Shown in pieces: positions 27,932 through 50,148 of a DNA stretch of 64,000 nucleotides (the first letter of the stretch is position 1; each line of letters begins with the position of its first letter). The stretch covers positions 1,131,143 through 1,195,142 of the forward strand of contig NZ_JAPVBG010000001.1 in NCBI RefSeq assembly GCF_026967805.1, in the 5' to 3' direction. Source of the DNA: Blastococcus sp. VKM Ac-2987. Lineage in GTDB: Bacteria; Actinomycetota; Actinomycetes; Mycobacteriales; Geodermatophilaceae. The notes under the pieces are model-generated. The model did not search any database and was not told the origin of the DNA. It saw only the letters and a list, made by a program, of their open reading frames with translations. The position numbers and the translations under genes are program-made.

Positions 27932-27958
27932 AACTCGGCACACAACTCGCTGTGTTTG
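27932..27958 (-). promoter_or_regulatory. Sigma-28-like promoter for the 168-aa gene
   Basis: On the minus strand TCAAAC (CAAA as the -35 core, 27955-27958), exactly 15 bases, then GCCGAGTT (27932-27939). The box order, sequence and spacing match the other flagellar promoters of the window. It lies about 55 bases upstream of the ATG at 27877. Confidence 0.6.
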
Positions 27959-28078
27959 ACGCAGTTGTCGGGCCGACTCTTCGGCAATAGTTGCCCGTGT
28001 CGCGCCCGATCACGACCGTCGGGCCGTCAGATTGGCACGGACTGCCGAGGGACGCCCCCCGGCAGCCGTGCACATCTG

Positions 28079-28381
28079 TCAGTCGCCGGGACGCCCCGCC
28101 TCGACCGGGCCCGGGCTCTCGGCCCCGACGCCGTCGGGAGTCGCGTCCGGCAGGGCCGTGGGCGCGAACGCCGCGAGCGCGCCGAGCGTGTCCGCGGTGA
28201 CCTGCGCGGCGAGGAGGTTGGCCTCGGCGATCTGCCGGTAGACCTCCTCGCGGTGGATGGCGACCGCGCGGGGGGCCTTGAAGCCCAGCCGCACGGTGCC
28301 GCCGCGTACCTCGACGACGTGCACCTCGATGTCGTCCCCGATGCGGATCGTCTCGCCGACGCTGCGGGTGAGTGTGAGCAC
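28079..28381 (-). CDS. csrA: Carbon storage/translation regulator CsrA
   Basis: The first 60 residues are a full CsrA: MLTLTRSVGETIRIGDDIEV, RLGFKAPRAVAIHREEVYR. A 40-residue Ala/Pro/Gly-rich tail makes it 100 residues, longer than the usual 60-75. The GTG start follows GGAGGGG. CsrA binds GGA-containing hairpins near ribosome sites, and in Firmicutes it represses flagellin translation until FliW sequesters it. Here it lies directly downstream of fliW in the leftward flgN-flgK-flgL-fliW-csrA operon. Confidence 0.93.
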   Translation of the reverse strand: MLTLTRSVGETIRIGDDIEVHVVEVRGGTVRLGFKAPRAVAIHREEVYRQIAEANLLAAQVTADTLGALAAFAPTALPDATPDGVGAESPGPVEAGRPGD

Positions 28382-28473
28382 GTGTACCCCTCCATGGGTG
28401 TGTGGTGGCCGTCCGTGGCGGTGCCCGCGGGCGCGGGCACGGGAAGCGCGTCCCTGACGCGGTTCCGCTGAGG

Positions 28474-28923
28474 TTATCGGCGCAGGCGCCGCCGGAGGGG
28501 AAGGGCGCCGTCGTTCTGCACGACCTGGCGCGCCCGGTGCGTCGCGGGGGCGACGACGACCGGTGCCCGCAGGTTCGCCGTCGCCTCGGCCGCGTCGCCA
28601 CCGGGCACGCTCACCAGGCAGTAGACCCGGGCGTCGGCCACGTCGGCCAGCCCCAGCTCCACCTGCACCGCGGCCGGGACCACCGGCGCGTACCCGGGGA
28701 AGAACTCCCGCGCCGGCACCGCGAGGAACCGGGGGCCGTCGGGGGCGACCGCCTGGAGCCAGAAGAGCAGCCCGGCGCCGTCCCCGGCGACCAGCACGTA
28801 GTCGGAGTGACGGGGGAACCCCGGCAGCGGCTCGGCGAACGACAGCACCTGGACCGGGGGCGGAGCCGGTGCCGTCGTCATCATCGGGGCCGTCGCGGGG
28901 CTGCCGGCGAGGGTGGTGGTCAT
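28474..28923 (-). CDS. fliW: Flagellar assembly factor FliW
   Basis: A 149-residue FliW: after about 25 Ala/Pro-rich residues comes VQVLSFAEPLPGFPRHSDYV, then FWLQAVAPDGPRFLAVPAR, VELGLADVADARVYCLVSVP and TANLRAPVVVAPATHRARQV, all diagnostic of the family. FliW is an allosteric antagonist of CsrA and also binds flagellin, coupling secretion to flagellin synthesis. The ATG shares a base with the flgL stop (TGATG). Confidence 0.92.
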   Translation of the reverse strand: MTTTLAGSPATAPMMTTAPAPPPVQVLSFAEPLPGFPRHSDYVLVAGDGAGLLFWLQAVAPDGPRFLAVPAREFFPGYAPVVPAAVQVELGLADVADARVYCLVSVPGGDAAEATANLRAPVVVAPATHRARQVVQNDGALPLRRRLRR

Positions 28924-29807
28924 CAGCGCAGGTAGTCGAGCAGCGTCGGGGTGATGGCCTTGGCGGTGGCGGCGAGGGCCGACTCGTACGCCGTCTGCTG
29001 CATCTGCAGCTTCATGATCGTGTTCGGCAGGTCGATGTTCTCGACCTCCGCCAGCCGGGTCTGCAGGCTGATGTCCTGGTCGACGTTGATCTGGCCCTCG
29101 CGGTCGATCCGCGCCGAGCGGGCGCCGATGTCGGCGACCGCCGACTGCATCCCCTGCGCCAGCGCGTCGAGGTCGGCGAGGTCGGTCTCCAGGGCGGCGG
29201 GGTCGGCGGTCAGGTTGCCGGCGATGCGCCCGACGACGGCGAACAGGTCAGCGCCCGCCGGGCCGAAGGCCTCGGGCCCGTTGACGTCGATGCGGACGCT
29301 CTCGGTGGCGGAGACCCGGCGGGACACCTCGGCGCCGGCGAGTCCCAGGTAGGCGCCGGTCGTGGAGTCGTAGGCCTGCTGACCGGCGGTGATCCCGCCG
29401 AACAGCGGCCGGCCCGCGACCGTGGTGTTGGCCAGCCCGAGCAGGCTCTCCCGCAGTGACGCGGTCTCCGTGGCCAGTGCCTGCCGGGCCGTGTCGGACA
29501 TGGCGCCGGTGTTGGAGCCCTGGACGGTCAGGTCCCGGACCTTGCGGGTGACGTCCAGCATCTGCTGCAGCGTCGAGTCGGTCTGGTTCAGCCAGCTCTG
29601 CCCGTCGGAGATGTTCCGCGCGTACTGGGCGACCGCCTCCTGGTCCGCCCGCGTCTGCATGGCGCGGTTGGTGCCGGTCGGCGAGTCCGAGGGAGCGCTG
29701 AGCATCCGGCCCGAGGTGAGCTGCTGCTGGAGCTTGCCCAGGGCGTCGAGGTTGGAGTTGAGGCCCTGCAGGCTGGTGAGCGCGACGGCGCGCTGGGTGA
29801 TCCGCAC
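28923..29807 (-). CDS. flgL: Flagellar hook-filament junction protein FlgL
   Basis: A 294-residue flagellin-like protein. The N-terminal D0/D1 helices begin MRITQRAVALTSLQGLNSNL, and the C-terminal helix ends TAYESALAATAKAITPTLLD. The middle has DVNGPEAFG, typical of FlgL. It is the second junction protein between hook and filament. GTG start; four bases separate it from the flgK stop. Confidence 0.93.
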   Translation of the reverse strand: MRITQRAVALTSLQGLNSNLDALGKLQQQLTSGRMLSAPSDSPTGTNRAMQTRADQEAVAQYARNISDGQSWLNQTDSTLQQMLDVTRKVRDLTVQGSNTGAMSDTARQALATETASLRESLLGLANTTVAGRPLFGGITAGQQAYDSTTGAYLGLAGAEVSRRVSATESVRIDVNGPEAFGPAGADLFAVVGRIAGNLTADPAALETDLADLDALAQGMQSAVADIGARSARIDREGQINVDQDISLQTRLAEVENIDLPNTIMKLQMQQTAYESALAATAKAITPTLLDYLR

Positions 29808-29811
29808 CGGG

Positions 29812-31212
29812 TCAGCGCCCGACCAGGCCGGTGCGGTTGATCAGCACGTCGAGCGACTCGTCGATCGCGGTGATCATCCGCCCCGCGGCCGCGTAGGCGT
29901 GCTGGTAGGAGAGCATGTTGGTGAGCTCCTCGTCGAGGTTGACGCCGGCGACCGAGTCGCGCGCCGCGTCCACCGTGGTCGTGATGCTGCCCTGGATGGC
30001 GAGGTTGCGCTGGGACACCGCCGACTGGACACCCAGCTCGACGATCATCTTCCGGTAGCCGGCGTCGACGCCGGTGACCGAGTTCGCCAGCTGGGCGATC
30101 GCGTCGGCGTTCCCGCGGTCGAGGTTCGGGGTGCCCGGACCCACCGACGACGCCGCGATGCGGCTGGGGTCCTTGACCACCACGGAGATGGTCGACGCCG
30201 TGATCGGGCCGCCGGAGGAGCCGAGGATCGCCGTGCCGGCGTGGCCGTAGAGATCGAAGCCCCCGGAGTGCGCCTCGTTCAGCGCCGTCGCCAGGGTCGT
30301 CGCGATGCCGTCGAGCTGGACGCGGTAGCCCGGGACGATCGTGTTCAGCGTGTTCAGCTGTCCGGCGGCCGTCCCGCCGACACGGACGGCGAAGTCGCCG
30401 ACCGCGGTCACGATCCGCAGCGGGTCCCCGGCGGTGGCGTCGGGGTCGGTGGACCCGGCGAGGGCGAACTTCGTGGCCGAGCCGGCCGAGACCAGGCTCA
30501 TGCCACCGACGACGACGTCGAGCACGCCGTCCTTGCCGTGCCGGACGGTGGCCCCGACCCGGTCGGCCAGCTTCATGACGAGGAGGTCACGCTGGTCGGC
30601 GAGGTCGTTGCTCGGCAGGTTGCTCTGGGTGGCCCGCTGGATGGCCACGTTCAGCTCGGCGATGTTCTGCGCGGCAGCGTTGACGTCGTCGACGAGGACC
30701 GCGAGGTTGTCCCGGGTCTGGTCCCACTGCCCGCCGAGCTGCTGCTGGCTGAAGCGCAACCCGCCGACGAGGGTCTCCAGGCGCTTGAGGACCTGGCCGC
30801 GGGCGGCTGGATCGCTGGGCGTGTTGGCGACGTCCTGCCAACCGCTCCACATCTCCGACAGCATCTTCTGGATGCCGGTGTCGCCGGGCTCGCGGAACGC
30901 CTGCTCGACCAGCCCGTAGGCGTCGGTCTCGGCAACCAGCTGCGCCTGGTTGGCGTGCTCGGTGTGCCCCCGGCCTTCCAGGAAGGAGTCGCGGATGCGC
31001 AGCACCTCGGCGGCGCTGACGCCCTGGCCGATGCCCGTGCTGGTCGAGAAGAAGGCCGGCACGGTGCTGCCGCTGATGGCGGACAGGTCCACCCGCTGGC
31101 GCGAGTAGCCGTCGGTGTTCACGTTGGCGATGTTCTGGCCGGTGACGTCGAGGCCGCGGCGCTGGGCCCACAGCGAGGTGGTGGCCGTGTTGAGCCCACT
31201 GAAAGTGCTCAC
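29812..31212 (-). CDS. flgK: Flagellar hook-associated protein FlgK
   Basis: 466 residues starting at a GTG that overlaps the flgN stop. The rod/hook-type N-terminus reads FSGLNTATTSLWAQRRGLDV, then TGQNIANVNTDGYSRQRVDL, and the C-terminus NLDEELTNMLSYQHAYAAAG followed by ITAIDESLDVLINRTG. It is the first hook-filament junction protein. Upstream in-frame sequence, which reads through flgN, is not part of it. Confidence 0.95.
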   Translation of the reverse strand: MSTFSGLNTATTSLWAQRRGLDVTGQNIANVNTDGYSRQRVDLSAISGSTVPAFFSTSTGIGQGVSAAEVLRIRDSFLEGRGHTEHANQAQLVAETDAYGLVEQAFREPGDTGIQKMLSEMWSGWQDVANTPSDPAARGQVLKRLETLVGGLRFSQQQLGGQWDQTRDNLAVLVDDVNAAAQNIAELNVAIQRATQSNLPSNDLADQRDLLVMKLADRVGATVRHGKDGVLDVVVGGMSLVSAGSATKFALAGSTDPDATAGDPLRIVTAVGDFAVRVGGTAAGQLNTLNTIVPGYRVQLDGIATTLATALNEAHSGGFDLYGHAGTAILGSSGGPITASTISVVVKDPSRIAASSVGPGTPNLDRGNADAIAQLANSVTGVDAGYRKMIVELGVQSAVSQRNLAIQGSITTTVDAARDSVAGVNLDEELTNMLSYQHAYAAAGRMITAIDESLDVLINRTGLVGR

Positions 31213-31694
31213 AGGGCGCCGTCCAGGGTCACGGCACGGTGGCTGCCGTCGGAGTGCCGGCCGGACGAGCCGTAGGTGCCGGCCGAGGGGGTGCGCACCT
31301 GCAGCAGGGCGTCGCCGATGGCGGCCAGCCCGCCCTCGATCAGCTCGCGGTTGGCGTCGGAGAGGCTGCGCAGCTCGGTGACCAGGACCAGCAGGGCCTC
31401 GTGGTGCTTGGCGTAGAGGTCGTTCCACGGGGCGGGGGCGACCTCGGCCACCTGGCGGAGCGAGGGGTTCGACTCGATGCCGAGCTTCTGGGCCAGGGCC
31501 TCGGTGGCCGCGGCGCGCTCCACCTCGAGGGTGCGCAGCTGGTCGAGGACCACCTCGATCTCGTGGGCGATGCGCTGCAGCCAGCGGGTCTTGCCCGTGA
31601 GGATGAGGTACTGCTTCTCCTCGGCCTTGAACAGCAGCAGGTCCAGGAGCTCCTGCTCCCGCCACAGCAACGTCGACAGGTGCTGGTAGTCCAC
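31209..31694 (-). CDS. flgN: Flagellar export chaperone FlgN
   Basis: 161 residues from GTG 31694: a helical FlgN chaperone with LLWREQELLDLLLFKAEEKQ, WLQRIAHEIEVVLDQLRTLE and AKHHEALLVLVTELRSLSD. FlgN keeps FlgK and FlgL unfolded and delivers them to the export gate, which suits its place directly before flgK (GTGA overlap). The frame is open upstream, but the sigma-28-like promoter at 31778-31804 and the family length support the later start. Confidence 0.9.
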   Translation of the reverse strand: MDYQHLSTLLWREQELLDLLLFKAEEKQYLILTGKTRWLQRIAHEIEVVLDQLRTLEVERAAATEALAQKLGIESNPSLRQVAEVAPAPWNDLYAKHHEALLVLVTELRSLSDANRELIEGGLAAIGDALLQVRTPSAGTYGSSGRHSDGSHRAVTLDGAL

Positions 31695-31777
31695 GTGTCC
31701 ACCGCCTTCCGTCGTCTCACTCGTGCTCGCTCGCGCGGTCCCGGGCCGCAGCTCCGGGGCGTCCGCCGTCGGACCTG

Positions 31778-31804
31778 GCATCGGCACCCCTTCGGAGGGG
31801 GTTG
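31778..31804 (-). promoter_or_regulatory. Sigma-28-like promoter for flgN-flgK-flgL-fliW-csrA
   Basis: On the minus strand CTCAAC, 15 bases, GCCGATGC (-35 core at 31801-31804, -10 at 31778-31785). It lies 83 bases before the flgN GTG and is arranged back to back with the plus-strand promoter of the sigma gene, the two -35 boxes being 23 bases apart. Confidence 0.7.
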
Positions 31805-31827
31805 AGCCGAAGCTCCGAACTGGCGCT

Positions 31828-31854
31828 CAAGTTCGGCAGGTTTTGTGCCGACGG
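31828..31854 (+). promoter_or_regulatory. Sigma-28-like promoter for the flagellar sigma gene
   Basis: CTCAAG (core 31828-31831), 15 bases, GCCGACGG (31847-31854). It precedes the FliA/WhiG-type sigma gene, indicating positive autoregulation. It helps decide the start, because codons before about 31860 would not be transcribed from it. Confidence 0.7.
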
Positions 31855-31893
31855 GTGGTGCCGACCCCGGCGCCGCCCGCCGAGAAGTACGAC

Positions 31894-32886
31894 GTGACCC
31901 CAGTCCGTGCCCTCGCGACCGAGCGACCCCTGCGTGAGCGGTCGGCGCATGACCGGCCGTTGCACGAACGCCCCCAGAACGGCCGGGTCCCGAACCCGGT
32001 CAAGGGGCGGTCCGCGCGGGAGGTCGACGCGCTGGTGACCGAGCACCTCCCGCTGGCCGCTTTCGCCGTCAACGCCGTCGCCTCCCGGATCTCGCTGCCG
32101 AGCCACGTGAGCCGGGACGACCTGCTCTCCTGCGCGCACGTGGCCCTGGTCGAGGTGGCGCGCCGGTTCGACCCGGCCGCGGGCGCCTCGTTCGCCACCT
32201 ACGCCCTCGCGCGGCTGCAGGGCGCGGTGCTCGACGAGCTGCGGTCCGGCGACTGGGCCAGCCGATCGGTGCGCGCCGCGGCCCGGCGGACCGACGCCGC
32301 CGCCGACGCCCTGACGATCAGCCTCGGCCGGCCCCCTACGCGGGAGGAGCTGGCGCAGAGCCTCGGCCTCGCGCGCAGCGAGCTCGACCACCTCCAGGTG
32401 GACGTCCACCGGGCCGTCATGGTCAGCATCGACGCCGAGGTCGGCCCCGACGGAGCCTCCCTCGACCTGCCCGACACCGGGGAGTCCCCCGAGCGCGCAG
32501 TCCTGCGCGGCGAACGCGCCCGGCACCTGCACGAGGCGATCCGGGCCCTCCCCGACCGGCTCGACGAGGTCATCGAGCGCAACTACTTCGGTGATGAATC
32601 ACTGACCGACATCGCGGAAGACCTGGGCGTGACGCTGTCGCGGGTCTCGCAGATGCGCGCCCGGGCGCTGACCCTGCTGCACGCCGCCATGGGCGAGACG
32701 TGGGAGGGCACGCCCGTCGCCGCCACCGGCGGGGTGCGGGCGCGCAACCAGCAGCGGAGCTACCTGGACCGGCTCACCGGCCGGGCCGGTCGTGCCCTGC
32801 CGTCGTCGATACCGGCGCCGCCACCGCCCCGGGCCCGCGCCGGCGCGTGGATCACCCCCGAGCGTGCCGCGGCCCGACCCGCCTGA
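31894..32886 (+). CDS. FliA/WhiG-type sigma factor
   Basis: A sigma-28-class factor of about 330 residues. Region 2 is RDDLLSCAHVALVEVARRFD, then FATYALARLQGAVLDELR. Region 3 is RPPTREELAQSLGLARSELD, and region 4 is LTDIAEDLGVTLSRVSQMRA. It should direct transcription of late flagellar genes from the TCAAG-N15-GCCGATGA sites. The GTG at 31894 with GAGAAG upstream lies downstream of its own predicted promoter; the frame is open back to 31723. A C-terminal Pro/Arg extension of about 60 residues follows region 4. FliA and WhiG cannot be told apart by sequence alone; context favours FliA. Confidence 0.88.
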   Translation: MTPVRALATERPLRERSAHDRPLHERPQNGRVPNPVKGRSAREVDALVTEHLPLAAFAVNAVASRISLPSHVSRDDLLSCAHVALVEVARRFDPAAGASFATYALARLQGAVLDELRSGDWASRSVRAAARRTDAAADALTISLGRPPTREELAQSLGLARSELDHLQVDVHRAVMVSIDAEVGPDGASLDLPDTGESPERAVLRGERARHLHEAIRALPDRLDEVIERNYFGDESLTDIAEDLGVTLSRVSQMRARALTLLHAAMGETWEGTPVAATGGVRARNQQRSYLDRLTGRAGRALPSSIPAPPPPRARAGAWITPERAAARPA

Positions 32887-32920
32887 GGGATACGCGGCCG
32901 AGAAAAAATTTCGTTCGCCT

Positions 32921-32947
32921 CAAGTCCCAGCGGCCCCAGGCCGAAAC
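32921..32947 (+). promoter_or_regulatory. Sigma-28-like promoter for fliC
   Basis: CTCAAG (core 32921-32924), exactly 15 bases, GCCGAAAC (32940-32947). It gives a leader of about 75 bases before the flagellin ATG. Directly upstream is an unusual A-rich run, GAGAAAAAATTTCG, at 32900-32913, the most AT-rich stretch in the region and a possible UP-like element. Confidence 0.7.
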
Positions 32948-32976
32948 CCGTTGTGCGACACCAGCACGGCCCGCAG

Positions 32977-33026
32977 CACGGATGCAGCGGGAACACCCAG
33001 TACGACCCCGTCCAAGGAGGATCACC
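32977..33026 (+). promoter_or_regulatory. fliC leader with possible CsrA-binding GGA motifs
   Basis: The leader RNA contains CACGGATG (32977-32984), close to the CsrA consensus ACANGGANGU, and the Shine-Dalgarno AAGGAGGATC (33014-33023) with a second GGA. Two GGA sites, one on the ribosome site, is the standard arrangement for CsrA repression, and csrA and fliW are both encoded nearby. This is inference from motif spacing. Confidence 0.4.
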
Positions 33027-34199: not shown

Positions 34200-34240
34200 T
34201 CTCAGCTGAGTAGCTGAGGGAGTACCTCAGCACCACCCGG

Positions 34241-34274
34241 GTGAGGGGGGAGGCCCTGCGGCCTCCCCCCTCAC
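34241..34274 (+). terminator. Hairpin between fliC and fliD
   Basis: GTGAGGGGGGAGGCC (34241-34255) pairs perfectly with GGCCTCCCCCCTCAC (34260-34274) around CTGC. A small palindrome CTCAGCTGAG follows the fliC stop at 34201. It probably stops most fliC transcripts, with readthrough into fliD, or protects the abundant fliC message. Confidence 0.8.
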
Positions 34275-34310
34275 TCACACCCAGCCCATCCCCGGACCAG
34301 GAGGAACCGC

Positions 34311-35684: not shown

Positions 35685-35729
35685 TCCCGCTCCCTCCCGC
35701 ACCGCCCCCTCGTCCCAGGAGTAACCCCG

Positions 35730-36475: not shown

Positions 36476-36614
36476 CGCCCAACCCGCCCGCCTCCCGGCC
36501 GGTCACCGCGCTCCCGCGGTGGCCGGCCGTCGTGCTTCCCGCCCGGCTCGTCCGTCACAACCGTCCCCCGCACCCCTCCTGACCGCCGCTCCCCTCCTGT
36601 CGGGGAACGGCGGT

Positions 36615-36641
36615 CAAGCCCCGCGCCGGCGGTGCCGATGA
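36615..36641 (+). promoter_or_regulatory. Sigma-28-like promoter for the flgB operon
   Basis: GTCAAG (core 36615-36618), exactly 15 bases, GCCGATGA (36634-36641), followed by GGCTT. Transcription would start near 36648, about 114 bases before the flgB ATG, and probably covers flgBC, fliEFGHIJ, fliK and flgDE. Confidence 0.7.
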
Positions 36642-36761
36642 GGCTTGTGCACGGAGAGCACCACCATCGCCACGGATCGGCGGCCCTGCACTCGTTCGCG
36701 AGTGTCTTCCGCGTACCCGGAGGTCGATCGTGTCCTGCTCCACCCGCCGGGGATCCGCTCG

Positions 36762-37109
36762 ATGATCCCCGACGCCACCTCGACGGTCCTGAAGGCGGCC
36801 CTCGCCGGGCTCGCACAGCGGCAGCGCGTCACCGCCGACAACATCGCGAACGTCAACACCCCCGGCTTCCTCGCCGGGCGGACCGACTTCGAGACGTCGC
36901 TGCGCGGGGCCGTCCGGAGCGGTTCCACGCCGGTGATCTCCAGCGGCACCACCGCCCGCTCGCTCGAGCCGACCAACACCAACGGCAACAACGTCAACCT
37001 GGATGCGGAGACCGTCATCGCCACCGAGACCGGGCTGCGCTACCAGCTGGCCCTCAACGCGCTGGACGGCCGGTACAACTCCCTCCGCACCGCCTTGAGG
37101 ACGTCCTGA
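36762..37109 (+). CDS. flgB: Flagellar basal-body rod protein FlgB
   Basis: 115 residues from ATG 36762. The rod signature is near the N-terminus: LAQRQRVTADNIANVNTPGF, followed by TDFETSLRGAVRSG. The C-terminus is YQLALNALDGRYNSLRTALR. The frame is open upstream to 36645, but that part is arginine-rich and outside the family. FlgB is the proximal rod subunit. Confidence 0.93.
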   Translation: MIPDATSTVLKAALAGLAQRQRVTADNIANVNTPGFLAGRTDFETSLRGAVRSGSTPVISSGTTARSLEPTNTNGNNVNLDAETVIATETGLRYQLALNALDGRYNSLRTALRTS

Positions 37110-37111
37110 CC

Positions 37112-37516: not shown

Positions 37517-37830
37517 TGACCATCCCGCTCGGCGGCATCCCGCCGGTCGGCATCGGTGCGGTCACGGGGGTCGCCGGCAGCACCCGCGGCACTCCCGCCG
37601 CCGAAGGCGCCGACGGCTTCGCCGCCGTCCTCGCCTCGACGTTCGACAAGCTCCAGGCCACCCAGTCCGTGACCGCGGGAAAGGCCGTGCAGGCCGCCAC
37701 GGGCGACCTGAAGGACGTCCACGACTACATGATCGCCAGCGCTGAGTCCGGCGTGGCGACCGAGATGGTCGTGACGATCAAGAACCAGGCCGTCGCGGCG
37801 TTCAACGAGATCATGAGGATGCAGATCTGA
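37516..37830 (+). CDS. fliE: Flagellar hook-basal body protein FliE
   Basis: 104 residues with the FliE C-terminal motif: LKDVHDYMIASAESGVATEM, VVTIKNQAVAAFNEIMRMQI. It joins the MS ring to the rod. Coupled at both ends by TGATG junctions (flgC and fliF). Confidence 0.95.
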   Translation: MTIPLGGIPPVGIGAVTGVAGSTRGTPAAEGADGFAAVLASTFDKLQATQSVTAGKAVQAATGDLKDVHDYMIASAESGVATEMVVTIKNQAVAAFNEIMRMQI

Positions 37831-42831: not shown

Positions 42832-43283
42832 AGCCGACCCGCTTCCGGCTGCAGCCGGTGCTCGAGCTGCGCCGCACCGAGGAGCGCGCCGCGGCCGCCG
42901 CGGCCGCTGCCGCCGCCACCTCGGCCGCCGACGCCGCCCGGCGGGCGACCGAGTACGAGACGGCCCTGTCCGGCGCGGTGCTGCCGCCGTCGCTCCCGGC
43001 CGGGTCCTTCGTGGCGGCCATGGTGCTGCTGCGCACGGCCGCCACCGACGCCGCCGATGCCCGGGCCCTGGCCACGGCGCAGGCCGAGCAGGCCGAGGCC
43101 GTCCGCGCGGAGTGGACCGCCGCCGCGCAGCGCACCAAGGCCCTGGAGCGCCTCGCCGAGCGCCACCGGGCCGCCCAGCAGCACGCCGCCGACGTCGCCG
43201 AGGAGCGCGCCGCCGACGATCTGGTCACCGGCCGGGCCGGCCGGGGCACCGGCGCACCGAGGGGGACGGCATGGACGGACTGA
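42828..43283 (+). CDS. fliJ: Flagellar export protein FliJ
   Basis: 151 residues, almost entirely a coiled coil: FRLQPVLELRRTEERAAAAA at the N-terminus and ERLAERHRAAQQHAADVAEE near the C-terminus, which is the FliJ pattern. FliJ is the stalk of the FliI hexamer and promotes export. ATG in the fliI stop. It overlaps the following cell-wall enzyme by 13 bases. Confidence 0.88.
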   Translation: MKPTRFRLQPVLELRRTEERAAAAAAAAAATSAADAARRATEYETALSGAVLPPSLPAGSFVAAMVLLRTAATDAADARALATAQAEQAEAVRAEWTAAAQRTKALERLAERHRAAQQHAADVAEERAADDLVTGRAGRGTGAPRGTAWTD

Positions 43284-44227
43284 CCGCCGTGCAGGCCCGG
43301 ATCTCCGAGATCCAGGCCCGGTTCCAGCCGACCGCGACCGCGACCGCGACCTCGTCCGCGGCCTGGGCGTCGGCCGCCGGCGCCGCGGGCCTGACCGGCA
43401 CCTCGGCGGCCGGCACCTCGGCGACCGGCGGGGGCACCGCGTCGGGCAGCGCCGTCGTCACCGAGGCGCAGAAGTACCTCGGCGTCCCCTACCTGTGGGG
43501 CGGGACCGACCCGGGCAAGGGCCTGGACTGCTCCGGGTTCACCAAGCTGGTCATGGGCAACCTGGGCGTCGAGCTGCCGCGCACCTCCTCCCAGCAGGCC
43601 ACCACCGGCAAGGCCGTCGCCTCGCTCGACTCCGCCCGCCCGGGCGACCTGGTCTTCTTCGACTACTCCTCGGACCGGCCCGGGGTCGACCACGTCGGCA
43701 TCTACGTGGGCGACGGCAAGATGATCGACTCGCCGAAGCCCGGGGGCACCGTCGGCATCCGTGACGTCGGTACCCCGACCGCCATCCGCCGGGTCCTGCC
43801 GGAGACGGCCGCGGCGCCGACGGCACGTCCCACCGGCTCCGCGCTCACAGGGGTCCCGTACGCCGACCTGTTCACCCGCGCGGCCGGCAGGCACGGGGTC
43901 GACGCCCCGCTGCTCGCGGCGGTCGCCAAGCAGGAGAGCGGCTTCGACGCCTCGGCCGTCTCCCCCGCCGGCGCCCAGGGCCTCATGCAGTTCATGCCGG
44001 CGACCGCCCGGGGCCTGGGCGTCGACCCGCTCGACCCCGGCTCGGCGATCGACGGCGCCGCGAAGTACCTCAGCAGCCTGACCCAGCAGTTCGGCTCCAC
44101 CGAGCTGGCGCTGGCCGCCTACAACTCCGGCCCCGGGACGGTCAGCCGCTACGGGGGCATCCCGCCCTACCCGGAGACCCAGAACTACGTCCGCTCCGTG
44201 ATGAGCAAGGCAGAGGCCTACCGATGA
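43271..44227 (+). CDS. Flagellar peptidoglycan hydrolase: NlpC/P60 plus lytic transglycosylase
   Basis: A 318-residue two-enzyme protein. An Ala/Thr linker (18-60) leads to a complete NlpC/P60 domain (60-165) with Cys87 in LDCSGF and His141 in DHVGIYVGDG, then an SLT transglycosylase domain (195-318) with Glu222 in AVAKQESGFD, AQGLMQFMPATARGLGVD and ALAAYNSGPGTVSRYGG. It has no signal peptide, so it is probably exported by the flagellar apparatus. It sits where FlgJ-type enzymes are expected and should open the wall for the rod. Confidence 0.9.
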   Translation: MDGLTAVQARISEIQARFQPTATATATSSAAWASAAGAAGLTGTSAAGTSATGGGTASGSAVVTEAQKYLGVPYLWGGTDPGKGLDCSGFTKLVMGNLGVELPRTSSQQATTGKAVASLDSARPGDLVFFDYSSDRPGVDHVGIYVGDGKMIDSPKPGGTVGIRDVGTPTAIRRVLPETAAAPTARPTGSALTGVPYADLFTRAAGRHGVDAPLLAAVAKQESGFDASAVSPAGAQGLMQFMPATARGLGVDPLDPGSAIDGAAKYLSSLTQQFGSTELALAAYNSGPGTVSRYGGIPPYPETQNYVRSVMSKAEAYR

Positions 44228-45600
44228 CAGCTCCTGTGACCTCCGCCGTCCCGGCCGCGCGCGCGGCGTCGACGTCGTCCTCCGACGGCGGGTCCACCGA
44301 CAGCGCGGCGCCCTTCGCGTCCGCCCTCGACGGTGCGCTGGCCGGCGGCCGGGGCGCGGTCCGGGACGCCGGGACCGGCAGCGGGCAGCAGTCCTCCGGC
44401 GGGTCGGCGACCGGCGGCGAGACCGAGGCGCCGGCCGACGGTGCGGTGCCGGTCGTCGACGCCGCCGTGGCGGGCGTGGCCGCGGCGCTGTGGGCGCTGG
44501 CCCTCGGCGCGGCCGCGGGCCCGGCCCCGGGTGGCCCGGTTCCCGCCGGGCCGGCGACCGCGGTACCGCCCGGCGCCCTCGTGGCGGGGTTCGTGCCGCC
44601 GGGGCCGCCGGTCCTGCCGGCGATCCCTGCCGGGCCGGCCGCGGACGTCCCGGCCGTCCCCGCGCCGGCCGTGCCCGCACCGATGGCGGGGCCGGCCGCA
44701 GGCGGTCGGCCCGCGGCAGCCGGCCCGGCGGTCCCGGCCGTCCCCGCACCGGCCACCGTGGCGACGGCGGCCGGGCCGCTGCCCGTCGTCACCGTCGCGG
44801 CCACGGCAGCCGGCCCGGCCGGCGGCGCCGAGGCCCCTGCCGGCCCGCCGCCCGCCGGTCCGGGCCCGGCCACCTCCACCGGGGCCGGTCCCTCCGACGG
44901 CACCCCTGCCCCGGTCCTCGCGGCGGGTCCTCCCGCGGCGGGGTCCGACCGGCCCGGTGACGGCGAGCCGCGGCCGGGCTCCCCCGCCCTCGCCGTGCCG
45001 GGGACGGAGACCACCGCGGAGACGGCTCCCGAGTCCGCGGCACCGGTCACGTCCCCGGCCGGCGGCGCCCCGGCGGTCTCCCCGGCCGGCGCGGCCGTGC
45101 CGGCTCCGGCCGACGTCGACGCGGCCACCGGGACCGGCGCCTCGCTGCCGGTCTCCGGTCAGGTCGCCCGGCAGGTGGCGGTGCTCAGCGGGGCCGGCGA
45201 CGGCACCCACACGATGACGCTGGTGCTCACCCCCGAGAACCTCGGGCCGGTCGAGGTCCGGGTGACCGTCAGCGAGAAAGGCCTCGACCTGACCCTGCGC
45301 GGCGCCTCCGAGCTGGGCCGCGCGGCGCTCCTCGACGCGCTCCCCGAGCTCCGCCGCGACCTGGAGTCCGCCGGCCTGACCCCCTCGAAGGTCGAGCTCG
45401 ACGCCGACGCCGACACCTCCTGGCTCGCCCGGCACGCCGCCGAGCAGCAGGCGCAGCAGGGATCCGGCGACCGCGGACCGGCACGGGACCGGGCCGGCGA
45501 GCGGTTCCCGTCCGGGGATCGGACTGCCGATAGCGGAGAAGGGCGCGCGAACCAGCCCCGCACCCGTTCCACGTCGTCCGGCGTGGACGTGCTCGCCTGA
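44224..45600 (+). CDS. fliK: Flagellar hook-length control protein FliK
   Basis: 458 residues. About 340 residues of Ala/Pro/Gly-rich sequence form a disordered ruler, followed by the conserved FliK C-terminal domain: LVLTPENLGPVEVRVTVSEK, GLDLTLRGASELGRAALLDA, LPELRRDLESAGLTPSKVEL. FliK measures the hook and switches export specificity through FlhB. ATG in the stop of the upstream hydrolase gene. The ruler is more proline-rich than the enteric form. Confidence 0.9.
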   Translation: MTAPVTSAVPAARAASTSSSDGGSTDSAAPFASALDGALAGGRGAVRDAGTGSGQQSSGGSATGGETEAPADGAVPVVDAAVAGVAAALWALALGAAAGPAPGGPVPAGPATAVPPGALVAGFVPPGPPVLPAIPAGPAADVPAVPAPAVPAPMAGPAAGGRPAAAGPAVPAVPAPATVATAAGPLPVVTVAATAAGPAGGAEAPAGPPPAGPGPATSTGAGPSDGTPAPVLAAGPPAAGSDRPGDGEPRPGSPALAVPGTETTAETAPESAAPVTSPAGGAPAVSPAGAAVPAPADVDAATGTGASLPVSGQVARQVAVLSGAGDGTHTMTLVLTPENLGPVEVRVTVSEKGLDLTLRGASELGRAALLDALPELRRDLESAGLTPSKVELDADADTSWLARHAAEQQAQQGSGDRGPARDRAGERFPSGDRTADSGEGRANQPRTRSTSSGVDVLA

Positions 45601-45619
45601 GAGAAGGAGCCACCCACCG

Positions 45620-46042
45620 ATGCCGGACGCAGTGACCGGAGCCACCAGCGCTGCCGCGACCTACTCGGCCACGAACACCGTGGACCGCGGCGACCAGATG
45701 GGCAAGGACACCTTCCTCAAGCTCCTCGTCGCCCAGATGAAGTACCAGGACCCCGGCAACCCCGCTGACACCAACCAGCTGATGGCGCAGACGGCGACCT
45801 TCAGCCAGGTGGAGAAGCTCGAGGAGATCGCCAAGCAGAACGCCTCGATGCTGGCCCTGCAGCGCTCCAGCAGCGCGGGCGCGATGGTCGGCCAGACGGT
45901 CACCTACACGGACTCGACCGGCGCCGCGAAGAGCGGTGTCGTCAGCTCCGTCCGCCTGGCCACCGACAAGGCCGAGGCCGAGGCCACCATCGGCGGCGTC
46001 GCCGTGCCCGTCGGCCGGATCACCGCCGTCGGCGCCGGCTGA
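45620..46042 (+). CDS. flgD: Flagellar hook cap protein FlgD
   Basis: 140 residues: the FlgD N-terminal signature is MGKDTFLKLLVAQMKYQDPG, NPADTNQLMAQTATFSQVEK, and the C-terminus MVGQTVTYTDSTGAAKSGVV. It scaffolds hook assembly. Shorter than enteric FlgD (about 230), as in other Gram-positive forms. Ribosome site GAGAAGGAGCC. Confidence 0.93.
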   Translation: MPDAVTGATSAAATYSATNTVDRGDQMGKDTFLKLLVAQMKYQDPGNPADTNQLMAQTATFSQVEKLEEIAKQNASMLALQRSSSAGAMVGQTVTYTDSTGAAKSGVVSSVRLATDKAEAEATIGGVAVPVGRITAVGAG

Positions 46043-46109
46043 CCCCCACCCCGGCCCCGCGCCGACCCGCGCGCCACCATCCCGAGCCCCAACCCGGAGG
46101 AGACCCCCG

Positions 46110-47342
46110 ATGCTCCGCTCCATGTTCTCCGCCATCTCCGGTCTGCGTGCCCACCAGACCAAGATGGACGTCACCGGCAACAACATCGCCAACGTCAACA
46201 CCGTCGGCTTCAAGAGCAGCGCCACCGTCTTCCAGGACACGCTCTCCCAGGTCGTGCGCGCCGGCGGTCAGCCGGCCGCCGACCGGGGTGGCACGAACCC
46301 GGCGCAGATCGGTCTCGGCGTCAAGCTGGCCGGCATCACCACCAACTGGACCAACGGTGCGGCGCAGTCCACCGGCCGGTCCACCGACTTCATGATCGAG
46401 GGCGACGGGTTCTTCGTCGTCAACGGTGCGGGCGGCCAGCAGCTGTTCACCCGCGCCGGCTCGTTCGACTTCGACGCCAGCGGCAAGCTGGTCACCCCGG
46501 ACGGCTCGATCCTGCAGGGCTGGGTGGCCGACGCGAACGGCGTCGTGAACGCCAACGGTCCGGTCCGGGACCTGACCGTGCCCTACGGGCAGATCGTGAA
46601 CCCGAAGCCGACGACGGCCGGCAGCATCCTGGGCAATCTGCCCTCCGACGTCGCCGACGGGACCACCTTCCAGGTCGGCGCCGACATGTACGACAGCCAG
46701 GGCGTGCTGCAGAAGGTCGCCTACAACCTGGCGAAGACCGGCCCCAACACCTGGGACGTCAGCGTCGTGCACGCCGACGGGACCCCGCTCATGGGGACCA
46801 CCGGGATCGTGTTCGACGCCGCCGGCAACCTGACCACCCCGGCCGGTCCGAACTTCGCGCTGGCCCCGTTCACGCCGGCCGGCTACCCCAGCTGGACCAA
46901 CCCGGTGACGATGAGCCTGGCCGGGCTGACGCAGTTCGGCGGGGCCAACACGCTGGCCGCGCCGAAGCCGGACGGCTACGCCCTCGGTTCCCTGCAGTCG
47001 TTCACGCTCAGCAACGACGGCACGATCACCGGGGTCTACTCCAACGGCCTGCGCCAGCCCCTGGGCCAGCTGGCCATGGCCTCGTTCAACAACCCCAGCG
47101 GCCTGGAGAAGGCCGGTAACTCCGCCTTCCGCGTCGGCGACAACTCCGGCGTCGCGATGATCGGCCTGGCCGGCCAGGGCGGCCGCGGCGAGCTGAGCTC
47201 CGGCGCGCTGGAGATGTCGAACGTGGACCTCAGCGAGGAGTTCACCGGCCTGATCGTCGCCCAGCGCGGCTTCCAGGCGAACAGCCGGGTGATCACCGCC
47301 TCGGACGAGATCCTCCAGGACCTGGTGAACCTCAAGCGCTGA
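46110..47342 (+). CDS. flgE: Flagellar hook protein FlgE
   Basis: 410 residues: LRSMFSAISGLRAHQTKMDV, TGNNIANVNTVGFKSSATVF and, at the C-terminus, ELSSGALEMSNVDLSEEFTG, LIVAQRGFQANSRVITASDE. The middle D1/D2 region contains FMIEGDGFFVVNG. It is the only FlgE/F/G-class gene in the window, so hook and possibly distal-rod functions may be shared or encoded elsewhere. ATG with GGAGGAG upstream; a terminator follows. Confidence 0.93.
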   Translation: MLRSMFSAISGLRAHQTKMDVTGNNIANVNTVGFKSSATVFQDTLSQVVRAGGQPAADRGGTNPAQIGLGVKLAGITTNWTNGAAQSTGRSTDFMIEGDGFFVVNGAGGQQLFTRAGSFDFDASGKLVTPDGSILQGWVADANGVVNANGPVRDLTVPYGQIVNPKPTTAGSILGNLPSDVADGTTFQVGADMYDSQGVLQKVAYNLAKTGPNTWDVSVVHADGTPLMGTTGIVFDAAGNLTTPAGPNFALAPFTPAGYPSWTNPVTMSLAGLTQFGGANTLAAPKPDGYALGSLQSFTLSNDGTITGVYSNGLRQPLGQLAMASFNNPSGLEKAGNSAFRVGDNSGVAMIGLAGQGGRGELSSGALEMSNVDLSEEFTGLIVAQRGFQANSRVITASDEILQDLVNLKR

Positions 47343-47362
47343 CGCACGTCGCTCCACCGGCC

Positions 47363-47398
47363 GACGGCCCGGCCGCCCGGAAGGGTGACCGGGCCGTC
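47363..47398 (+). terminator. Terminator after flgE
   Basis: GACGGCCCGG (47363-47372) pairs with CCGGGCCGTC (47389-47398) around a 16-base loop. It lies between the flgE stop and the promoter of the flbD-mot operon, so it marks a transcript boundary. Confidence 0.65.
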
Positions 47399-47430
47399 CG
47401 TCACACGCCCCCGGCCAGGGCGTTTCGGCT

Positions 47431-47457
47431 CAAGGAAGCCCGTTCCGGGACCGATGA
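47431..47457 (+). promoter_or_regulatory. Sigma-28-like promoter for flbD-motA-motB-fliL
   Basis: CTCAAG (core 47431-47434), exactly 15 bases, ACCGATGA (47450-47457), 49 bases before the flbD GTG. It differs from the others only by A for G at the first -10 position. Confidence 0.65.
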
Positions 47458-47506
47458 GAACTGTGCTGCCCGTTCCACGGGCCCCACCGAGCAAGAGGAC
47501 CGACCC

Positions 47507-47794
47507 GTGATCCGAGTGACGCGCCTGAACGGCGACCAGTTCGCGCTCAACCCCGACCTCATCGAGAAGGTCGAGGCCCACCCCGACACGGTTGCCTTCC
47601 TGGTGGACGGCACGAAGTACGTGGTGCGGGAGAGCGTGGACGAGGTGCTCCAGGAGATCTGCGAGTACCGCGCCGGCATCCTCGCCATCTCGTACGCGAT
47701 GGACCGCGGCACCTACCGCCCGCACGTCCCCGAGCAGCAGCAGGACATCGGCGACTCGTCGGTCGTGCCCTTCCCGATCCGAGAGGAGCGCTGA
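47507..47794 (+). CDS. FlbD family flagellar protein
   Basis: A 95-residue protein. Its first 65 residues match the SwrD/FlbD family of Gram-positive bacteria: MIRVTRLNGDQFALNPDLIE, VEAHPDTVAFLVDGTKYVVR, ESVDEVLQEICEYR. In Bacillus subtilis the homologue SwrD raises flagellar motor power. It is immediately upstream of motA here, which fits that role. It is not the Caulobacter transcription factor also called FlbD. Confidence 0.88.
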   Translation: MIRVTRLNGDQFALNPDLIEKVEAHPDTVAFLVDGTKYVVRESVDEVLQEICEYRAGILAISYAMDRGTYRPHVPEQQQDIGDSSVVPFPIREER

Positions 47795-47797
47795 CCC

Positions 47798-48568
47798 GTG
47801 GATCCGGCCACCCTGATCGGTTTCGTCATCTCGATGGCGGCGCTCCTGGTCTTCATGATCATGGAGGGCGCCGACCCGAGCTCGCTGATCTTCATCCCGG
47901 CGATCATCCTGGTCATCGTCGCCACGTTCGGCGCGGCGATGTCGGGCCAGACGATGGACGACCTCAAGAAGATGCCCGGCTGGATGAAGATGGCCCTGAT
48001 GCCGGCCAAGGTGCCGCCGCCCACCGACCAGATCCAGACCCTGGTCTCGCTGGCGGAGAAGGCCCGCAAGGAGGGACTGCTGGCCCTCGAGGGGCAGGTC
48101 AAGGCGATCGAGGACCCGTTCCTGCGGCGCGGCCTGCAGATGGGCATCGACGGCACCGACCCGGAGGAGCTCCGCGCGGTCCTGGAGAGCGAGATCGCGG
48201 CCAAGAAGTCCGAGGACAAGGTCGCCGCCAAGTTCATGACCACGATGGGCGGCTACGCGCCGACCATCGGCATCGTCGGCTGCATCGTCGGCCTGATGAA
48301 CGTGATGGGCAGCCTGAGCAACCCCGAGGCTCTGGGGCCGATGATCGCCGCGGCGTTCGTCGCCACGCTGTGGGGCGTCATGGCCGCGAACTTCTGGTTC
48401 CTCCCCATGGGCGCCAAGATCATGCGCGTCAGCGAGCTGCAGGCCGCGCAGATGGAGCTCCTGGTCGAGGGCATCACCGAGATCCAGGCCGGCACCAGCC
48501 CGCGCGCCGTCCGGCTCAAACTGACCTCGCTCGTGCCGCCGGGTTCCGTCGCGAAGGAGGCGGCGTGA
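47798..48568 (+). CDS. motA: Flagellar stator protein MotA
   Basis: 256 residues with four membrane segments (about 3-22, 29-48, 150-170 and 183-203). Cytoplasmic loop motifs include DPFLRRGLQMGIDGTDPEEL, and the channel motif is MGGYAPTIGIVGCIVGLMNV. With MotB it forms the torque-generating ion channel. GTG start three bases after flbD. Confidence 0.95.
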   Translation: MDPATLIGFVISMAALLVFMIMEGADPSSLIFIPAIILVIVATFGAAMSGQTMDDLKKMPGWMKMALMPAKVPPPTDQIQTLVSLAEKARKEGLLALEGQVKAIEDPFLRRGLQMGIDGTDPEELRAVLESEIAAKKSEDKVAAKFMTTMGGYAPTIGIVGCIVGLMNVMGSLSNPEALGPMIAAAFVATLWGVMAANFWFLPMGAKIMRVSELQAAQMELLVEGITEIQAGTSPRAVRLKLTSLVPPGSVAKEAA

Positions 48569-48593
48569 GCCCCGGGACCGCCCGGGCCGGCTC

Positions 48594-49496
48594 GTGAGCT
48601 CCGGCCACGGCCGGCGCCGGGGGAAGAAGCACGAGGAGGAGGAGCACGAGAACCACGAGCGGTGGCTGGTGTCCTACGCGGACATGATGACGCTGCTTCT
48701 GGTGCTCTTCGTGGTGCTCTACGCCATGAGCCAGGTGGACACGGCCAAGTTCGCCGCCCTGGCCAAGGGCCTGAACGAGAGCCTGGGCGGCCCGATCACG
48801 GTGACGCCGGCTGCGTCCCCCGAGGAGTCCGTCCTCGACGGGCTGCCGGGCGCCATCGACATCGCCTCCGCCATCCCGCCGGACCCGACGGTCCAGCAGG
48901 CGCAGGTCGACCAGGCCGCGGCCCGGGCGGCGGCCGAGCGCGCCGAGCGGATCGCCGCCGAGGCCGCGGCCGCGTACGACGAGCTGGCCGCGGCCCGCGA
49001 CCGGATCGAGGCGGCGCTCGCCGAGGCGGGCTACGCCGGCGCCGCGCGGTACGAGATCGACGAGCGCGGCCTGGTCGTGCACATCGTGGCCGACCAGGTG
49101 CTCTTCGACGCGGAGGAGGCCGTGCTGCGGCCCGAGGGCCGCGCGATCCTGGCCGCCGTCGCCCCCGCCGTGACCGGGCTGCCGAACCAGCTCGGCGTCG
49201 AGGGCCACACCAACCACCTCCCGGTCACCCGGGGCGGCCCGTGGCCGTCGAACTGGGAGCTGTCGACCTACCGCGCCACCACCGTGCTGCGGTACCTCGG
49301 CGACCAGGGCGTCCCGCAGCCGCGGATGTCCGCCACCGGCTACTCCTCGACCCGGCCGCTGGTGCCCGAGTCCGACCCGAACGCCGTCACCGTCAACCGG
49401 CGCGTCGACGTCGTCGTCCTGTCCACCGCCTCGGCGGAGGCCAACGCCCTCCTGCCGGGCATCGACGCCGCCGCCAACCAGGGAGTTCCCGAATGA
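48594..49496 (+). CDS. motB: Flagellar stator protein MotB
   Basis: 300 residues. A basic/acidic cytoplasmic tail precedes one membrane segment with the ion-carrying Asp (WLVSYADMMTLLLVLFVVLY). An Ala/Glu coiled linker (100-145) and an OmpA-like peptidoglycan-binding domain follow (VEGHTNHLPVTRGGPWPSNW, ELSTYRATTVLRYLGDQGV). It anchors the stator to the wall. GTG start; its stop overlaps fliL. Confidence 0.95.
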   Translation: MSSGHGRRRGKKHEEEEHENHERWLVSYADMMTLLLVLFVVLYAMSQVDTAKFAALAKGLNESLGGPITVTPAASPEESVLDGLPGAIDIASAIPPDPTVQQAQVDQAAARAAAERAERIAAEAAAAYDELAAARDRIEAALAEAGYAGAARYEIDERGLVVHIVADQVLFDAEEAVLRPEGRAILAAVAPAVTGLPNQLGVEGHTNHLPVTRGGPWPSNWELSTYRATTVLRYLGDQGVPQPRMSATGYSSTRPLVPESDPNAVTVNRRVDVVVLSTASAEANALLPGIDAAANQGVPE

Positions 49497-49978
49497 GCAA
49501 GGACAAGACCGCCCCCGCCCCCGCCGACGGCGAGGAGGGCGAGGGGAGGGGCGGGAAGAAGAAGCTCCTCCTCGTCCTGGCCGCCGTGCTGCTCGCCGGC
49601 GCCGGCGCCGGCTACTTCTTCCTCTTCGCCGGCTCGGCCGAGGCCGAGGCCGTGGAGCCGGTGTCCAGCGGCACCTACCTCCCGCTCGAGCCGGTGGCGG
49701 TGAACCTCGCCGGCGGCGGCTACCTGAAGATCGGCGTCGCCCTGGAGCTGACCGAGGAGGGGGCCGCCGCCGGCGACGGGCACGGCGGAGGGGGCGTCGA
49801 CGGCACCAAGGCCCTGGACCTGGTCATCTCCACGTTCTCCCAGGCCGCGCCGGCCGACGTCACCGGTGCCCGGGAGGCGCTCAAGGAGTCGCTGCAGGCG
49901 AAGATCGTCGAGGCCTACACCGACCACGACGTCAAGGCGGTCATGGGCATCTACTACACCGAGTACGTCACCCAGTGA
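49493..49978 (+). CDS. fliL: Flagellar basal-body-associated protein FliL
   Basis: 161 residues: a charged N-terminus, one membrane segment (about 24-45, KKLLLVLAAVLLAGAGAGYF) and an extracellular domain with TYLPLEPVAVNLAGGGYLKI and KESLQAKIVEAYTDHDVKAV, as in FliL. It surrounds and supports the stator. ATG in the motB stop. Two hairpins follow. Confidence 0.93.
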   Translation: MSKDKTAPAPADGEEGEGRGGKKKLLLVLAAVLLAGAGAGYFFLFAGSAEAEAVEPVSSGTYLPLEPVAVNLAGGGYLKIGVALELTEEGAAAGDGHGGGGVDGTKALDLVISTFSQAAPADVTGAREALKESLQAKIVEAYTDHDVKAVMGIYYTEYVTQ

Positions 49979-49984
49979 CGTACT

Positions 49985-50055
49985 CGCCGCGGCGCTCCGG
50001 CGCCGCGGCGGCCCGACCACGCAGGGGTGTCCTCCGGTTCCGGAGGGCACCCCTG
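49985..50055 (+). terminator. Double terminator after fliL
   Basis: The first hairpin is CGCCGCGGCGC (49985-49995) with GCGCCGCGGCG (50000-50010). The second is a 16-base stem (50022-50037 with 50040-50055, one mismatch). Together they separate the mot transcript from the fliM operon, whose own promoter follows at 50122. Confidence 0.8.
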
Positions 50056-50121
50056 ACGCGCGTCAGGGGCCCCACCCGTCACACCACCCCCTGTCGGCAC
50101 GGTGGCCGCTCGGTGCCCGGT

Positions 50122-50148
50122 CAGGGTGGTCCCGCGCCCCGCCGATGA
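50122..50148 (+). promoter_or_regulatory. Sigma-28-like promoter for the fliM operon
   Basis: GTCAGG (core 50122-50125), exactly 15 bases, GCCGATGA (50141-50148). The -10 and following GGCTT are identical to those at flgB. An ATG at 50145 lies inside the -10 box, so it should not be in the transcript, and the GTG at 50157 is favoured as the fliM start. Confidence 0.6.

Follow-up and report, generated by a model that had tools for sequence, protein, structure and literature searches.

How can a sigma factor and all of its promoters shift specificity together? The question is open, and it is puzzling because altering only the sigma or only the promoters would be expected to disrupt the regulon. 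It is raised here by the flagellar locus of Blastococcus sp. VKM Ac-2987, a member of the Geodermatophilaceae, in a stretch of 64,000 nucleotides (the window; positions 1131143-1195142 of contig C1 in a genome of 4.6 Mb and 74% GC; C1, C5, C6, and C8 are contig labels of this genome). A preliminary description of the window had listed seven sites, each with a sigma-28-like -35 and -10 element at a strict 15-base spacing, ahead of apparent operons. We put the probability at roughly three in four that six of the seven are promoters of the FliA/WhiG (sigma-28) class, read mainly by the sigma factor encoded at 31894-32886, and that the element has a spacer of mostly 15 bases in the family where 14 predominates elsewhere, with plausibly related changes in the sigma factor. 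The features concerned are listed below; N15 denotes 15 bases between the two hexamers.

27935..27960, minus strand: claimed site before a gene for a 168-amino-acid (168-aa) protein; a match to the strict expression given below at N15
31781..31806, minus strand: predicted promoter of flgN, probably also of flgK-flgL-fliW; CTCAAC-N15-GCCGAT
31826..31851, plus strand: predicted promoter of the sigma gene, back to back with the flgN promoter; CTCAAG-N15-GCCGA(C)
31894..32886, plus strand: FliA-like sigma factor, proposed reader of the promoters; Pfam sigma-70 regions 2, 3, and 4
32919..32944, plus strand: predicted promoter of fliC; CTCAAG-N15-GCCGA(A)
36613..36638, plus strand: predicted promoter of flgB, probably also of the genes behind it; GTCAAG-N15-GCCGATGAG
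47429..47454, plus strand: predicted promoter of flbD, probably also of motA-motB-fliL; CTCAAG-N15-ACCGATGAG
50120..50145, plus strand: predicted promoter of fliM, probably also of downstream genes; GTCAGG-N15-GCCGATGAG

Pfam matches back the identities of flgN, the sigma gene, fliC, flbD, and fliM, and flgB has a rod-protein domain. The genes motA, fliL, flgD, and fliF-fliI were named from gene position, without a domain scan, and operon extents were deduced from gene layout.

The sites in the window

The seven strings listed in the preliminary description are all present at the 15-base spacing, each once in the window, at coordinates two to three bases from those first given. Both strands of the window were searched with a strict regular expression, [CG]TCA[AG][ACG]-N15-[GA]CCGA, and with its variants at every other spacing between 9 and 21. 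The strict form gave 10 matches at N15, namely the seven sites and three others that lie inside long open reading frames (ORFs; 8854+, 45941+, and 43395-), and 0 to 7 matches at each of the other spacings. Eight intergenic stretches (1272 bases), picked by hand and including six that contain the sites, held 7 matches at N15 and 0 at N9-14 or N16-21. By comparison, Markov-1 shuffles of these stretches had a mean of 0.021 matches and a maximum of 2, with 0/2000 reaching 6, so the motif is not equally frequent in shuffled DNA. Because the stretches were picked for their sites, this comparison speaks to spacing and density and not to the choice of region. The claim that the -35 box differs from TAAA was borne out as well: instead of the TAAA of sigma-28-type promoters the sites have TCAA, TCAG, or TTGA, and a TAAA-type -35 had 0 matches in the window at spacings of 9 to 21.

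Conservation and spacer length within and outside the family

The locus sigma is strongly matched in 100 of 112 Geodermatophilaceae genomes by our own count. A family panel was built from the flagellar loci of 30 sigma-positive genomes and the window (31 genomes from 9 of 12 genera; three stretches ran off contig ends, and 22 to 31 genomes were available per gene). The six sites recur before the same genes across this panel. A relaxed expression, consisting of [CG]T, then CA[AG] or TGA, a spacer N counted between the hexamers, and [GA]CCG[AT], matched at N15 in 137/176 gene-genome pairs for the six genes and at N14 in 10/176. In shuffled upstream DNA of the family, N15 was found in 1/176 pairs, and among the controls, 19 other genes of the flagellar locus searched with the same expression, in 4 of 532 pairs. 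Each of the six promoters was found at N15 in 4 to 8 of the 9 sampled genera.

The agreement differed from gene to gene. Relaxed counts at N15 were 25/31 for flgN (mostly as CTTGA), 18/31 for the sigma gene (five genera), 29/31 for fliC (-10 GCCGA or GCCGT), and 24/26 for fliM, and the corresponding strict counts, taken on a slightly longer upstream stretch, were 2/31, 19/31, 9/31 (GCCGA only), and 25/26. With either expression, flgB had the site in 18/29 genomes and flbD in 23/28. The relaxed counts for flgN and fliC carry some hindsight, because the expression was relaxed after the alignments had been viewed, although the controls share the relaxed form. Leave-one-gene-out matrices, in which the tested gene is excluded from training, recovered at a cut-off of 11 bits 29/29 sites for flgB, 26/26 for fliM, and 24/28 for flbD, compared with 12/532 for the 19 control genes.

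From genus to genus, each promoter retains a characteristic form of the motif, with GTCAGG before fliM, CTCAAG before flbD, mostly CTTGA before flgN, and often GCCGTAA before fliC. Column identity among orthologous sites was 0.85-1.00 in the -35 box, 0.77-0.99 in the -10 box, and 0.53-0.63 in the spacer, a contrast that is partly built in because the sites were selected by their cores. Over the 137 family sites, the -10 box follows GCCGAT(A/G)A (G, 0.97; C/C/G, 1.00; A, 0.85; T, 0.64; G, 0.78; A, 0.50), the first five of these columns having been demanded by the expression.

For comparison outside the family, 394 genomes were drawn from the class, of which 78 match the locus sigma at 1e-30 or better; the weakest of these matches, at 35-38% identity, may be WhiG-type sigmas. 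The outside panel comprised twenty loci from 19 genomes of 11 other families. A second, named-genome set comprised 79 loci (from the best 80 of 572), 9 of them from Geodermatophilaceae, and the two samples overlap in some genomes (L313 in one is L256 in the other). In the outside panel, N14 was found in 41/85 gene-genome pairs and N15 in 1/85, with at most one match at N14 or N15 in shuffled upstream DNA. The N14 sites were spread over flgN (14/18), fliC (13/18), flgB (5/11), and flbD (8/10), and had CTCAGG (28/41) or a similar -35 box together with a GCCGA -10 box. The named set agreed for flgN, fliC, and flgB taken together, with 22 of 37 outside pairs at N14 and 3 at N15, and its nine family loci had the sigma site at N15 in 4, the fliC site at N15 in 9, and the flgB site at N14 in 1 and at N15 in 4.

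These comparisons contradict the idea that the -35 box is a lineage-specific consensus, since CTCAGG or CTCAAG precedes the same genes in other families, mostly at a spacing of 14. The CTCA -35 box is common to the class, and the extra spacer base is a tendency of the Geodermatophilaceae, whose spacer is not the N14 of the other sampled families. In having CTCA -35 and GCCGA -10 boxes before flagellar operons, the six sites agree with the consensus reported for actinobacterial flagellar promoters. No earlier report on Geodermatophilaceae flagellar promoters or on a spacer shift was found among the literature matches listed, and the accessible part of a 2023 article on actinobacterial flagella (PMC10746217) contains neither the word "promoter" nor a family name beginning with Geodermatophil.

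The sigma factor of the locus and competing explanations

The product of 31894-32886 exceeds the Pfam cut-offs for sigma-70 regions 2, 3, and 4. FliA_WhiG is the best-scoring of the sigma models listed for it; because the score lies under the cut-off of that model, we call the protein FliA-like and not a certified member. Its best match in the PDB is FliA (6pmi, from E. coli; 1.3e-29), and the next is 6pfv, which like 6pfj is a Streptomyces WhiG. The locus sigma is 40-47% identical to the sigmas of the 20 outside loci, and flgN or fliC lies close by in 18 of these loci. The helix expected to read the -35 box is TLSRVSQMRARA in 31/31 family genomes and usually TESRVSQxRAEA outside the family: in place of the L of the family helix, 18/20 outside loci have E and two have H, and in place of the second R of its RARA, 18/20 have E and two have Q. 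Beside region 2.4, 31/31 family genomes have RLQGAVLDELRSGDWASRSVR; within it, the RLQ differs outside the family, where 20/20 loci carry I or V for the L and 17/20 carry R for the Q. In a tree built by a quick method and marked by long branches, the family sigmas group as a single clade (Shimodaira-Hasegawa-like approximate likelihood ratio test [SH-aLRT], 99) on a stem of 1.6 changes per column. The outside sigmas are set against just one WhiG branch, which is very long; stems in this part of the tree are long and its forks open. The genome also encodes a second, WhiG-like sigma of the FliA class (C5:1282239), which keeps TESRICQ and DWIPRSVR in 31/31 family loci (the window's and the 30 best-scoring).

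In the mechanism that we propose, the locus sigma would bind RNA polymerase and open one promoter class at early (flgB and fliM) and late (fliC) operons, and would also serve its own gene and the flgN operon that stands back to back with it. The element would be the actinobacterial flagellar promoter, with CTCA at -35 and GCCGAT at -10; in Geodermatophilaceae it would have a spacer of mostly 15 bases, compared with the 14 predominating elsewhere, and a looser -35 box (CTCAAG, GTCAGG, GTCAAG, or CTTGA). The sigma substitutions peculiar to the family, in the helix that reads the -35 box and next to region 2.4, plausibly accompany the new spacing and may have caused it; by an alternative route, the spacer could act via the arrangement of the sigma domains. 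Whether an ancestor of the family re-spaced an alternative-sigma regulon seems to us evenly balanced. In that event, at least the four promoters with a clear outside counterpart (flgN, fliC, flgB, and flbD), and probably all six, would have gained one base and a relaxed -35 box, with the helix changing from E to L and from E to R and further changes beside region 2.4; the WhiG-like paralogue would have stayed fixed, and Klenkia and some Geodermatophilus-like flgN sites would still have the 14-base form. The element is of an ordinary kind, a flagellar promoter, with a real family-specific twist: a spacer of mostly 15 bases, with sigma changes alongside.

Several observations weigh against this reading. 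The locus sigma scores 154.9 bits with FliA_WhiG, below the NCBIfam cut-off of 189.6, and the WhiG-like sigma scores higher (276.7 bits, versus 156.1 for the locus sigma where the two were compared) and passes the cut-off in 100/112 family genomes. In the leave-one-gene-out test, recovery was weak for the sigma gene (sigF, 15/31), fliC (12/31), and flgN (2/31), whose sites use variants. The flgN site is at N14 in 6/31 genomes of the family panel, and the nine named family loci have it at N14 in 4/9 and at N15 in 5/9. Outside the family, there is little to compare for fliM (1/8 at N14) and sigF (0/20); in the named set, sigF sites are at N14 in only 6/70 outside loci and at N15 in 2, and two Nocardioides flgN sites are plausibly N15. 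Five of the six N14 sigF sites come from Actinoplanes or Paractinoplanes, and the sigma-gene site is therefore not special to Geodermatophilaceae. The order-mates listed matched the locus sigma weakly or not at all. The spacer change is confined to one clade and therefore counts as one event, and the co-occurrence of spacer and sigma changes is no proof of cause. TAAA-type matches with at most two mismatches number 18 in the genome versus 5 in the reversed control; none is exact and one has a single mismatch, and TAAA-type promoters were dropped as an explanation. Finally, Jang et al. (2016, J Bacteriol 198:2219) reportedly mapped flagellar promoters of Actinoplanes missouriensis, by rapid amplification of cDNA ends, to CTCA(N15-17)GCCGAA; the CTCA-N17 seen here falls within its range of 15-17, and the spacer would therefore lie inside a range already reported.

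Some of these points suit a different explanation, in which actinobacterial FliA promoters simply tolerate a 15-base spacer, and this length spread through the family without a change in sigma specificity. The plausible Nocardioides sites fit it, as do the reported Actinoplanes consensus, the 10 family pairs at N14, and the named set outside the family, in which 5/108 pairs are at N15 versus 28 at N14. However, the equal length in six promoters, with 1/85 at 15 bases outside, is hard to account for without a shared cause, and the long stem branch and altered reading-helix residues of the locus sigma also argue against mere tolerance, which we consider unlikely, if worth keeping in view.

Less probable still is recognition of the promoters by the WhiG-like sigma, which RsiG and cyclic di-GMP (c-di-GMP) presumably hold in check, with the locus sigma either doing something else or using the same promoters jointly with it. 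The difference in FliA_WhiG score (276.7 versus 156.1 bits) and the number of family genomes passing the cut-off are in its favor. According to PMC8325347, moreover, twin-motif RsiG occurs in 16/16 Geodermatophilaceae species, and WhiG promoters precede diguanylate cyclase and phosphodiesterase genes in Rubrobacter; here, one strong extra site lies before a GAF-GGDEF gene. Yet the promoter change in the family tracks changes in the locus sigma, whereas the WhiG-like sigma has TESRICQ in all the loci read. The WhiG search consensus TAAA/GCCGATAA, as given in the same article, has no exact match in this genome, and the locus sigma sits within the flagellar cluster, its own gene preceded by a site.

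The seventh site, before the 168-aa gene, stands apart from the six. The gene product matches no Pfam family, and an N15 site precedes the orthologue in 1/31 family genomes, the window's own only, with the strict and the relaxed expression alike. The site scores 3.9 bits in the leave-one-gene-out matrix, in which 0/31 genomes reach 11 bits. It scores below 9 on the full matrix, compared with 17.8-25.5 for the other six sites; that matrix was built from 95 orthologous sites, and scores on the window are slightly circular because 5 of the 95 are the window's own. The match at 27935-27960 is probably due to chance and overlaps another conserved element. Two palindromes upstream of the gene, ACACAGCGAGTTGTGT (27940-27955) and GGCAACTATTGCC (27983-27995), are kept in several relatives, judged by eye from part of the alignment, and are possibly sites of another regulator. 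The fit to the strict expression at N15 would allow a real promoter gained in this species, which is doubtful in view of its absence before the orthologue in 30 relatives, the low leave-one-gene-out score, and the overlap with a retained palindrome. The proposal of one sigma-28-like class at the head of apparent operons thus stands for the six sites that recur in the family and falls for this one. Just downstream of the 168-aa gene, 26196-27365 (minus strand) encodes a diverged protein related to FliA-like sigmas (FliA_WhiG, 30.2 bits, 3.4e-7, far under the cut-off; no Pfam match), with tblastn matches in 31/31 family genomes.

That the conserved elements are activator or repressor binding sites instead of a -35/-10 pair is very improbable: conservation alone fits promoter or operator alike, but the two blocks resemble those of the FliA class, keep a constant distance across a spacer of low conservation, and are oriented into the gene, and the fliM start codon always lies 9-10 bases away.

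Further sites, leaders, and known systems

Genome-wide, the expression STCAR-N16-GCCGA had 123 matches (37 in the reversed control) and the consensus with up to two mismatches had 129 (35 reversed); these raw counts do not measure a regulon, because coding and intergenic matches are unsorted and the places listed are the first 100. Single-mismatch entries in the consensus list include C1:1352686, C5:301769, C6:998423, and C8:59313. The surroundings were viewed for eight other consensus matches. Candidate promoters among them are C1:1572782(-) (25.5 bits), before the gene of a 285-aa, probably membrane-bound protein; C1:835878(-) (21.7 bits), ahead of the gene for a response regulator that bears a DNA-binding domain; C5:437900 (position 2901 of locus L172; 20.3 bits), before a GAF-GGDEF (diguanylate cyclase) gene; C6:43080(-) (18.7 bits), before a short ORF; and C1:1617226(-) (18.2 bits), before a 125-aa ORF. 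A further match, C8:77978 (20.9 bits), resembles coding DNA. At four of the five, including C5:437900, a start codon lies 9 bases past GCCGAT, much as in fliM. C6:43080 was picked by this geometry and the geometry of the other three was noticed afterwards, and all five are in the consensus list; a genome search for the geometry gave 26 matches versus 5 reversed. By its sequence, the C5:437900 site is a possible link of the flagellar sigma class to c-di-GMP.

The genome has nine genes for methyl-accepting chemotaxis proteins (MCPs). In the fetched chemotaxis cluster (MCP, CheA, CheW, CheB, and CheX stretches) no credible site was found, the best matches scoring 12.3 and 15.5 bits, the second of these antisense to cheB; around three MCP genes (L167, L168, and L169) matrix scores were 13.4 or less. 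The 285-aa gene bearing the strong site is followed, some 2 kb further on, by an MCP gene (C1:1568k). The preliminary description's promise of a whole regulon was thus overstated, because the additional candidates are few, a handful of strong sites, and the chemotaxis cluster lacks a credible one.

Downstream of the predicted promoters, the following features were identified.

50157..50159, plus strand: start codon (GTG) of fliM, with GCCGAT 10 bases before it
36649..36761, plus strand: conserved flgB leader with GCACGGA, a possible hairpin GCCACGGATCGGC (36669-36681), GGAGG, and an 11-codon mini-ORF
32971..32990, plus strand: hairpin CCGCAGCACGGATGCAGCGG of the fliC leader with GGA in its loop, present both in the consensus fold and when the sequence of this genome is folded alone
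28223..28378, minus strand: CsrA domain (PF02599, 79.4 bits, over the cut-off)
28474..28923, minus strand: fliW (PF02623)

A GTGA lies 9-10 bases past GCCGAT in 25/25 family genomes with the fliM site, as read directly from the strings because the script tally stopped at earlier ATG or TTG codons, and the GTG is in frame with the extrapolated start in 24/25 (our own arithmetic). Since this start codon nearly coincides with the expected transcript start, a leaderless mRNA is predicted, and by its sequence the fliM message looks leaderless. In the flgB leader, the hairpin is weak, being present in the consensus fold and absent from the single-sequence fold of this genome. The mini-ORF (36730-36765) follows GGAGG, and its stop overlaps the flgB start (36762), as it does in 25/29 family genomes; over the 28 genomes that have one, it spans 7-22 codons and its peptide is poorly conserved. 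Translational coupling of flgB to this mini-ORF is likely from the layout of the sequence.

The GGA-bearing leaders of flgB (36649-36761) and fliC (32945-33026) share their locus with csrA and fliW. ANGGA occurs at least twice in 28/29 flgB leaders and 25/29 fliC leaders of the family, and the fliC GGA-loop hairpin would be a CsrA-type site. Control by CsrA and FliW is known for Bacillus flagellin. By analogy, the two leaders are possible CsrA targets, under a Bacillus-like CsrA/FliW control perhaps extended to flgB. Elsewhere in the flagellar cluster, before fliK, 43112-44227 encodes a protein with NlpC/P60 and transglycosylase SLT domains.

If the proposed reading is true, the Geodermatophilaceae would offer a natural case in which a sigma factor and the promoters of its regulon adopted a new spacing jointly. 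Both spacer forms live in related actinobacteria, few helix residues have changed, and the promoters are short, which makes the case testable in vitro. The comparison also supplies a usable flagellar promoter motif for the family, with the right spacer.

Among known systems, the locus resembles that reported for Actinoplanes missouriensis in its CTCA -35 and GCCGA -10 boxes before flagellar operons, with one class for all. Unlike in the consensus reported there, the Geodermatophilaceae spacer hardly departs from CTCA-N17 (N15 when counted between hexamers) and the -35 box is looser, and other sampled families have mostly CTCA-N16. In A. missouriensis, 33 flagellar genes are transcribed simultaneously, with no hierarchy, according to PMC8306008. 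Canonical FliA/WhiG promoters, TAAA ... GCCGATAA in PMC8325347, share the GCCGAT -10 box and a similar distance between boxes; in contrast to them, the sites described here have TCAA or TCAG at -35, in a window without TAAA-type sites, and their -10 box continues mostly as TGA or TGG. The locus sigma itself is like 6pmi and 6pfv/6pfj in its regions 2-4, its DELRS-DW--RSVR motif, and its SRVSQ reading helix, and unlike them in the L that replaces E at the start of that helix and in its score under the FliA_WhiG cut-off.

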